Shown here in pieces: positions 1-54,880 of a stretch of DNA of 64,000 nucleotides. The stretch's first letter is position 1. Each line of letters opens with the position of its first letter. The notes under the pieces were generated by a model. The model had not been told where the DNA came from and ran no database searches. It saw only the letters and a list, made by a program, of their open reading frames with translations. The DNA comes from Myxococcota bacterium (GTDB lineage: Bacteria > Myxococcota_C > UBA6777). Location: NCBI GenBank assembly GCA_023150835.1, contig JAKLKB010000041.1, forward strand, positions 1 to 64,000, in the 5' to 3' direction. Both the position numbers and the translations under genes were made by a program.

Positions 1-221
1 AATCACACGGTGTTTCGTAGGGGCAGGCCCCCGTGCCTGCCCGATCTCTGTTGCGTCGGTGACCTCTTCATCGCCATCTTTTTTGAACGAACCCGTTCTT
101 CGGGCGCGAAAGTTGAAGAAACTTAGTGATACTTACTTAGACTTGTAAAGGTTGGCTTAGATCGGACATCTTAGCGTTTTGTACCCCTGTAAGGTTCACG
201 GGGGAGGGTTGGGGTGGGGGG

Positions 222-550
222 CTAACACTCCTACACATCGTCTGTAAAGCCTATGTAGCGGGGGGATCCGACATGGGCAGATTTCGTATCACCCGATAGG
301 CATCGGGTGAAGAAAAGAGACTGAGATGCCATATCGATACGAACAAGGCCAATGTTCGGGCGCGGGCGGTTCGCGAACCGCCCGTCTATCGGGACATGGA
401 GCATCGACTGAACATCATCACACAACAACAGCATTTCGTAGGATGGGTTGTCCGAGCAAGGAACATCCGCTTCTTTTTGCGTTTTGTTTGCCTTTTTACA
501 CGCAAACGTGTTGTCTTTCCGGCAGCACATACGATGTGTAGGAGTGTTAG
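222..550. mobile_element. MITE-like element with 20-bp perfect terminal inverted repeats and 10-bp target duplication
   Basis: The left end CTAACACTCCTACACATCGT (222-241) is the exact reverse complement of 531-550. The element is flanked on both sides by the identical 10-mer GGGTGGGGGG (212-221 and 551-560), which looks like a target-site duplication. The sequence on either side, with the element and one 10-mer removed, aligns with a repeat at 54701-54755 that has a single 10-mer at 54715-54724 and no insert, so an empty paralogous site is present in the same window. No transposase is encoded; the 99-codon minus-strand frame inside shows no recognisable motif. Movement in trans by a related transposase elsewhere is an inference. 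Confidence 0.75.
364..383. repeat. Dispersed palindrome (GGGCGGTTCG/CGAACCGCCC)
   Basis: This is a perfect 20-bp palindrome. An identical copy lies at 41842-41861, a degenerate copy at 41508-41527, and an analogous GC palindrome at 21-42. All are intergenic. It behaves like a REP/BIME-type unit; the function is unknown. Confidence 0.6.
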
Positions 551-742
551 GGGTGGGGGGGCAACCATAGCTTCACCTAACGCCTGTGGGGTGAAACCCC
601 ATACGCGCCGCTCAGATATCGTCAAAGCACAACCAAGCCAACCATTTTCCAAAGAAGTTGCCTATCTGCCGCAAGATGCGTACAATCGCCCAAGATGATC
701 GCCTCCACGCCACACGGCACGAACCCTTAGTGCGGATCAAGC

Positions 743-2248
743 ATGCCAGCAGAAGACCTGATCGAATGGGAACACCATCTTGCCCCCATCTATCGGCACA
801 ATCCCTATAGCCACCCGACGTACGAACGCGAGCGCCGCAAGATCGAGCGCCAACTTCAAGCGATCCAAGGAGAGGTCGTTTCAGCGACCGTCGACGATCG
901 GCTGCGGATGATGCGGCGGTGGCTCGAACGCTATGCGACGCAAGGACGGCTGTATCCGACACTTTGGCAGCGCTTTTATCTTTGCTTGTTGCGTTTCGTC
1001 CTTGATGCGGATGCCCGCACTCCCCAATACATCCCCTCCGACACAGGGACACTTTGGCACCAACTCGATCACCTCGGACAGATCTTTGATGTCCACGAAT
1101 GCCGAAAACTGCTGTCGATCGCCGAACGTGCGCGCTTAACCAAAACGGCGCTCAATCGCATCCGTGGTGCAAGCAACGAACTCACCCAACTCAAGCGCCA
1201 AGCATGGGGCGCTTGCTTTGGTGAAGATCTGATCCGCCTGTTGGTGTACGAACGCCTGCTCCAAGAACTCAACGTCCTGATCCTCGGCCCGACCGGCGCA
1301 GGAAAAGAATTGATCGCCCAAGTCCTGCTCGCTGCGGTGGGCGGCGAATGGGACGAGCGCAAACGCGGACAGTTGTGTTGGCACTCACACCGCACAGAAG
1401 CCCTCAACCTTGCGGAGTTTCCACGCGACCTGATGGCGGCACAGATCGTCGGCTACAAGCGCGGCGCGTTTACAGGAGCCAACCAAGACTTTCGCGGTGT
1501 CATGGCTCGTTGCCACCAAGGGGCTGTTTTTCTCGACGAGATCGGCGAACTCCCCGAAGAAGGCCAAGTCGTTTTATTGCGCGCTCTTGAAACCCGAAGA
1601 ATCCGCCCTCTCGGAGCCGAATCCACCGAATACGCCGATGCCCGCGTGATCACCGCAACGCACAACGAACTCGACGATATCCAACGCGCTCCACACTTTC
1701 GACGTGATCTGTATTTTCGGCTTGCTGGTTCGATCATCCGCGTTCCACCCCTACGCCAACGACGCGAAGATATCTTGCCGATCGCGCTTGGTTTCCTCGA
1801 TGAATGGGGACTTCGTACCCAAGCCAGCATCTACCTCGAAGACCCACGCCACTTGATCACCCAATGGCTCGAAAGCGACGAGATCCGAAAACATCCTTGG
1901 CCCGGCAATGTCCGCGAACTCAAACGCGCCATCGCACAGCTTTTGCTTGGACGCAGCGATACCCCCCTCCACGCCCCGCCAAGTACCTCTCCATCCCCAC
2001 TCTTCTCTAGCACAAGCTCCCCCACTTCCGCCTCCTCCACAGCCCCTCCCTACCCCAAAGAGATCTTGCTCGCCGAATGGACAATGGACCAAGTCAAAGA
2101 ATGGTATCTCCAACACGCCCTCCAACACTACCAAGGCAACCAAAACGAAACCGCACGACGCCTCAAAATCCATCGCACCACCATCTACCACACCCTCCGA
2201 AGATCCGTGCGTCCGACCCCTTCTAACCGCAAACCCAGCGCATCCTAA
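743..2248 (+). CDS. Sigma-54-dependent transcriptional activator (AAA+ enhancer-binding protein)
   Basis: Activates sigma-54 RNA polymerase by ATP-driven remodelling. The AAA+ core is complete: Walker A GPTGAGKE (residues 182-189), the sigma-54-contacting loop GAFTGA intact (241-246), Walker B AVFLDE (261-266), the RDLYFRL/PPLRQR segment (321-340) and WPGNVREL (386-393). A Fis-type helix-turn-helix lies near 466-485, after a Pro/Ser-rich linker. The first ~155 residues are charged and helical and match no receiver, PAS, GAF or FHA pattern I recognise, so the input signal is unknown. The 501-residue length is usual for the family. The ATG at 743 is the first in frame, and a small hypothetical gene follows 32 bp after the stop. 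Targets cannot be deduced; nearby kinase and repeat-protein genes are candidates only by proximity. Confidence 0.95.
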   Translation: MPAEDLIEWEHHLAPIYRHNPYSHPTYERERRKIERQLQAIQGEVVSATVDDRLRMMRRWLERYATQGRLYPTLWQRFYLCLLRFVLDADARTPQYIPSDTGTLWHQLDHLGQIFDVHECRKLLSIAERARLTKTALNRIRGASNELTQLKRQAWGACFGEDLIRLLVYERLLQELNVLILGPTGAGKELIAQVLLAAVGGEWDERKRGQLCWHSHRTEALNLAEFPRDLMAAQIVGYKRGAFTGANQDFRGVMARCHQGAVFLDEIGELPEEGQVVLLRALETRRIRPLGAESTEYADARVITATHNELDDIQRAPHFRRDLYFRLAGSIIRVPPLRQRREDILPIALGFLDEWGLRTQASIYLEDPRHLITQWLESDEIRKHPWPGNVRELKRAIAQLLLGRSDTPLHAPPSTSPSPLFSSTSSPTSASSTAPPYPKEILLAEWTMDQVKEWYLQHALQHYQGNQNETARRLKIHRTTIYHTLRRSVRPTPSNRKPSAS

Positions 2249-53177: not shown

Positions 53178-53476
53178 TCGGCCACACCCGACGACCCGAC
53201 CTCTTTCGATCTCCCAACATCAGGATTTTGTATGAGGCAGCAAAACCCCCATGTTCGCGATGCCTCATGCGGAGCCGTCGCCCGTCTGAAAAACCTGCCA
53301 TCACCCCGCCAACACGGGGTCAAGGGGCGACAGTCCCTTGTGGGGTATGGGGCAACGCCCCATCAAACAAACCCCAAACCGTCACGAACGACACCACACG
53401 CAGTCAAAAAGGTCTGGGGCAACGCCCCATCAAACCAACCCCCACCCGTTATCCCCCTACCGAATCGGAGGTTATG
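53178..53476. other. Intergenic region with dispersed repeat copy 3
   Basis: Dominated by the ~130-bp repeat (53235-53375), whose terminal GGGGCAACGCCCCATCAAAC hairpin is duplicated once more at about 53415-53440. The GGAGG site for the SDR gene lies at 53467-53471. Confidence 0.7.
53235..53375 (+). repeat. Dispersed ~130-bp intergenic repeat, copy 3
   Basis: Best match to the reversed copy at 54750-54880. It has a C-run, ATGTTCGCGATGCCTC, GCGGAGCCGT, GCCAACACGGGGTCAAGGGG and a GGGGC/GCCCC hairpin. Confidence 0.8.
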
Positions 53477-54472: not shown

Positions 54473-54700
54473 CTCTCCTCACTCTTCCCATTTCCTGTAG
54501 GGCGCTGCCCCATACGCGCCTTGTTAAGGTGGAAACACCGAATAGTCTAGCCTGATCGCCGTTTCTTTTTCTACCCCCCCCTCAATCCCCCCGTGAACGG
54601 GGGGAAGTTGGAACGGGCAGCGTCTGCGTCTCGTGCATACAGCGTGCGTCACGAAAAAACAAAATCCCCGATGCTTCCGACTTTCGCTCCCTCCCCTGTT

Positions 54701-54755
54701 CACGGGGGAGGGCGGGGTGGGGGGCTTTCCTCCGCTTCACCTAACGCCTATGGGG
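54701..54755. repeat. Uninterrupted G-rich repeat (empty MITE site)
   Basis: CACGGGGGAGGG.GGGGTGGGG followed by GCTTCACCTAACGCCTATGG matches 199-221 joined to 561-597, with a single GGGTGGGGGG at 54715-54724. Confidence 0.75.
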
Positions 54756-54880
54756 CGCTGCCCCACACCCCGCAAGGGAGCTTTGCCCCCTTGACCCCGT
54801 GTTGGCGAAAAGATCATCGTTTTTCAAACAAGCAACGGCTCCGCTTGAAGCCTCACAAACATGGCTTTTTTTGTGAGCTG
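54750..54880 (-). repeat. Dispersed ~130-bp intergenic repeat, copy 4 (reverse)
   Basis: On the minus strand it shows the same order of blocks as copies 1-3 (GCGGAGCCGT, CCAACACGGGGTCAAGGGGG, GTGGGGC/GCCCC). The far end reads CATGTTTGTGAGGC in place of CATGTTCGCGATGCC. Confidence 0.78.

Follow-up and report, generated by a model that had tools for sequence, protein, structure and literature searches.

The stretch of DNA analysed here (the window: 64,000 nucleotides, positions 1 to 64,000 of contig JAKLKB010000041.1 of a Myxococcota bacterium) carries near its start a short element that interrupts a dispersed repeat upstream of a regulatory gene. The features of the locus, together with an uninterrupted copy of the host repeat, are:

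194–221, forward strand: dispersed host repeat (GTTCACGGGGGAGGG...), part to the left of the insertion
207–211, forward strand: GGTTG, left arm of a short inverted repeat around the target (comparable spacing in ends of the second genome, G001)
212–221, forward strand: target-site duplication GGGTGGGGGG, left copy (sequence, shuffle test)
222–550, forward strand: non-autonomous element of 329 bp, internally deleted member of a family of ∼593–630 bp
222–241, forward strand: left terminal inverted repeat (TIR) CTAACACTCCTACACATCGT; family consensus C[T/G]AACACTCGGACAC[A/T]TCGT
364–383, forward strand: palindrome GGGCGGTTCGCGAACCGCCC at the presumed internal-deletion junction, present in two copies ∼245 bp apart in the long form
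531–550, reverse strand: right TIR, a perfect copy of the left end
551–560, forward strand: target-site duplication GGGTGGGGGG, right copy (sequence, shuffle test)
551–609, forward strand: dispersed host repeat, part to the right of the insertion
562–566, forward strand: CAACC, right arm that pairs with GGTTG at 207–211 (window sequence)
743–2248, forward strand: nearest gene, encoding a sigma-54-dependent activator (Sigma54_activat and HTH_8 domains), with its start codon ∼190 bp downstream of the element
54690–54775, forward strand: host-repeat copy that is uninterrupted and has a single 10-mer (54715–54724)

The perfect 20-bp inverted ends described in a first-pass annotation of this DNA were seen again in the window sequence: the two ends agree at 20 of 20 bp, and the match stretches to 24 nt at 96%. 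When up to three mismatches were allowed, CTAACACTCCTACACATCGT was found in the window at the element's two ends alone (chance expectation, 0). The open reading frames within the element do not exceed 100 amino acids; one of 99 amino acids that spans it had no Pfam match, and the element itself had no match in Rfam. As single strand the element folds strongly (z −6.55), and a regulator gene starts ∼190 bp downstream of it; on this basis the perfect ends could be read as a large hairpin maintained for a role in RNA or DNA structure, e.g. in regulating the downstream sigma-54 activator gene. We regard this as highly improbable: strong folding is expected of any TIR element, the ends of which pair, Rfam offers no match, and neither the target duplications nor the dispersal of the same element to unrelated loci, described below, fit such a role.

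The 10-bp flanking duplication was likewise confirmed. GGGTGGGGGG abuts the element on both sides, and the identity between the suffix of the left flank and the prefix of the right flank has its maximum at exactly 10 nt, a length that did not arise once when the two 30-nt flanks were shuffled 20,000 times. Apart from these two copies, the 10-mer occurs only once in the whole window, at 54715–54724, and the flanks joined with a single 10-mer align through the repeat at 54.69–54.78 kb. The earlier proposal of an empty paralogous site at 54701 thus stands insofar as this repeat aligns with both flanks and carries the 10-mer once, but the site is not unique, being one of ∼40 copies. The dispersed host repeat (GTTCACGGGGGAGGG..GGGGTGGGGGG..CC..) is found, uninterrupted or in part, at ∼40 further places in the genome, and the places of which the sequence was inspected nearly all have the site uninterrupted. 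A dispersed repeat (CGCCAACACGGGGTCAAGGGG) also has two 21-bp copies in inverted orientation in this part of the window, at 53307–53327 and 54787–54807, ∼1.5 kb apart.

The family was followed in two draft genomes of the genus, that of the window (G000; 93% complete) and that of Myxococcota MAG KLAP109 (G001; 86% complete). BLAST of G000 with the element returned 48 places, most of them halves or the shared core only; the best relative of the window copy there, and the second nearly complete copy in G000, lies at C195:19993–20320 (83% identity). A search with the TIR consensus at three or fewer mismatches yielded 44 matches in G000 against seven with the reversed control, and 60 against eight in G001, i.e. 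∼35 and ∼50 ends above control, respectively. Exact TIR matches in a genome collection came from KLAP109 as sole species (the window genome's own records were possibly excluded). In three genomes of the same family only matches with three mismatches were obtained, not above control; viral contigs contained no TIR, and plasmids did not contain the element. The family copies are thus restricted to one genus.

Both ends and a readable duplication were present at only three loci, the window copy and two complete copies in G001:

L068 (G001): both ends, 593 bp, target-site duplication CCACAGGGGG of 10 bp
L072 (G001): both ends, 630 bp, target-site duplication CCCCCGTGG of 9 bp

The duplications therefore differ between copies, with the 10 bp of GGGTGGGGGG in the window, and the same ends recur in two genomes, as the original reading of a MITE-like insertion had anticipated; the outcome named as its refutation, neither further copies nor varying duplications, did not occur. 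With its inverted ends, target duplication, many copies and absence of any recognisable protein, the window element qualifies as a MITE. The duplication is absent from two degraded two-ended copies in G000 (L002 and L015), and many family copies are one-ended fragments. Median identity of left-type ends is 73% in G000 versus 93% in G001, and that of right-type ends 87% versus 93%. The G000 family looks largely like a relic because its copies have diverged, and movement in G001 is more recent. In G001 most copies are cut off by the end of a contig, many contigs stopping inside the element, as would be expected of near-identical repeats in short-read assemblies.

Apart from its matched ends, the window copy is 16–17% diverged from its relatives, and none in its own genome is close to it. 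Both of its ends depart identically from the family consensus, with CT for GG (CTCCTACAC versus CTCGGACAC), which suggests either an unsampled subfamily or end-to-end conversion.

Comparison with the long form pointed to the origin of the 329-bp copy. In an alignment, the window copy, L002 and L064 share the 20-bp palindrome as deletion junction: of two GGGCGGTTCNCGAACCGCCC copies one is kept, and the sequence between them is gone. Because the long form holds a ∼92-bp core uninterrupted, we infer that the short form is its deletion product, most likely generated through recombination or slippage involving the two GGGCGGTTCNCGAACCGCCC copies of the ∼593-bp form. The same core belongs to a second family of TIR elements, present in both genomes (116 bp, also ∼170 bp; ends TAGGACTTACGCAGTT; L030:1450–1565, L027:1486–1601, L028:1486–1601, L114:5658–5773 and others), which has duplications of 5–6 bp that differ by copy (TCTTGA, TCTCTG, TTCTA and TCTAAA).

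The flanks of every end revealed two kinds of site, and the same TIR abuts both. At the first, GGGCAG is followed by 10 nt and then by the element end. This spacing of exactly 10 nt between GGGCAG and the TIR holds for 25 of 55 ends, compared with 0.58% of positions; the corresponding p = 4e-41 overstates independence, as some ends may share ancestry. Uninterrupted GGGCAG-N10-CTGCCC, a 22-bp REP-like palindrome with a GTAG foot and a hairpin fold (z −3.25), has 630 occurrences in G000 and 124 in G001, against 0 for the reversed control. Insertion therefore takes place at the centre of GGGCAG-N10-CTGCCC, with duplication of the N10. As N10 varies (CCACAGGGGG, CAAGGTGTGG, CCCCCCGTGG, CCACACATGG and others), it is the position that is conserved rather than the 10-mer. 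We also considered a 14-bp duplication AG-N10-CT at the REP sites, where the TIR and the palindrome arm both start with CT; this was rejected, since the window target lacks CT at that place and the right ends that carry CG are incompatible with it. Three genomes of the same family contain 0–7 copies of the palindrome, in contrast to ∼630 in G000 (e.g. window 21–42) and 124 in G001, where its abundance coincides with almost no Y1 (REP-associated) transposase.

At the second kind of site GGTTG is followed by 9–13 nt and then by the end, the distance being 10 nt for seven of nine G001 ends; the window duplication sits accordingly between GGTTG (207–211) and CAACC (562–566). Insertion at the centre of an inverted repeat fits both kinds of site, the GGTTG kind being less well supported in view of a G-rich run of variable length and, for the window's host-repeat target, of a fold that is not a stable hairpin (z +0.64). 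Most family copies are located in palindromic repeats. At L036:1560–1780, a ∼21-bp unit (GGGGACAAGCTCAAGTCAAGT) is repeated ∼10 times in tandem beside a TIR end. The first-pass annotation had overlooked both this preference for palindromes and the internal deletion, and had missed that the host repeat of the window is a many-copy family.

Might the element be a passive part of larger mosaic repeats, spread by copying or recombination of the host repeats rather than by transposition? Six right-half copies in G000 (L003, L004, L005, L008, L018 and L047) have GGGTGGGGGGCC as a common flank, with internal breakpoints that are similar in some cases, and the 92-bp core is common to the element and a different element family; the shared flanks of some one-ended fragments may indeed reflect copying of a larger unit rather than independent insertion. 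For the family as a whole, we nevertheless consider passive spread unlikely. The same ends adjoin at least two unrelated types of repeat, in both orientations and with the junction exactly at the TIR, and passive spread accounts neither for two-sided duplications of differing sequence nor for the plentiful uninterrupted targets.

Collectively, we are confident that these copies constitute a MITE family that makes duplications of 9–10 bp and is mostly placed at the centres of palindromic repeats, and that the window copy is an internally deleted member. In the process that these junctions suggest, a transposase would pick sites by dyad symmetry or hairpin potential and make cuts spaced 10 bp around the dyad, the central 10 nt then being duplicated by gap repair.

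As to the mover, the first-pass annotation had called the mobilising element unknown, and this statement holds: no autonomous relative with the same ends was found in the two drafts among loci of four transposase families. PF01609 (DDE_Tnp_1; for a possible IS4-family origin) matched five loci in G000, none of which carries the TIRs, and none in G001; PF00872 (Transposase_mut) matched none in either draft; PF00665 (rve) matched one locus in G000, where the TIR pair is absent, and none in G001; PF01797 (Y1_Tnp) gave two marginal matches in G000, without TIRs, and none in G001. Copies with a divergent interior (L034, L036, L038, L039, L044, L054, L055, L057, L059, L139 and L141) were read by eye, and no full-length element bearing a transposase gene was recognised among them. 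One PF01609 transposase remnant with stops (L146:1233–2240) lies inside inverted REP arrays of GGGCAGCC and inside a 45-nt inverted repeat starting AGAGGGTGTTTGCGAAAAAGTG. Our tentative suggestion, which we would not put forward as the probable one, is that the missing transposase recognises REP-like palindromes in their dyad-symmetric or cruciform form and integrates precisely in the middle of them, with a stagger of 10 bp; its family would be one to which targeting of this sort has not so far been assigned. If this were true, the hundreds of REPs would serve as a safe landing pad for MITEs.

The literature searched contained no account of MITEs from Myxococcota, and the present family documents such elements in a poorly studied genus of this group. 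Its target (the centre of a 22-bp palindrome), its duplication and the likely deletion mechanism are all readable from sequence, and it poses the question of what moved the copies in genomes that have almost none of the transposase families searched. The bacterial MITEs that have been reviewed (RUP, NEMIS/Correia, Nezha, Chunjie and QMITE; PMC10969869) are likewise short and non-coding, with TIRs of 15–30 bp, a target duplication, many intergenic copies and truncated or deleted variants. In contrast to these, the element described here, which is unrelated to them in sequence as far as searched, is mostly found at the centres of REP-like palindromes, and no parent IS was found. Its target shares the GTAG foot, the palindrome and the high copy number with GTAG-type REPs (PMC3733652; target GTAGGGGCAGCCCCCTGTGGCTGCCC). 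This resemblance concerns the target and not the element, and REP-associated Y1 transposase is nearly absent here; we therefore rejected the element itself as a GTAG REP or REPIN, given the two marginal Y1_Tnp matches in G000 and none in G001, and its possession of TIRs and a target duplication. Insertion into repetitive extragenic palindromes is shared with IS1397, IS621, ISKpn1, ISPa11 and ISPpu9/10, for which REPs are the targets (Tobes and Pareja, 2006; PMC1525189). However, those are full elements with a transposase gene, whereas the present one is non-autonomous and has a 10-bp duplication that spans the palindrome centre. REP-centred targeting, known earlier for full IS elements, is thus seen here for a non-autonomous one, and shows repeats nesting in repeats and building mosaic intergenic regions.
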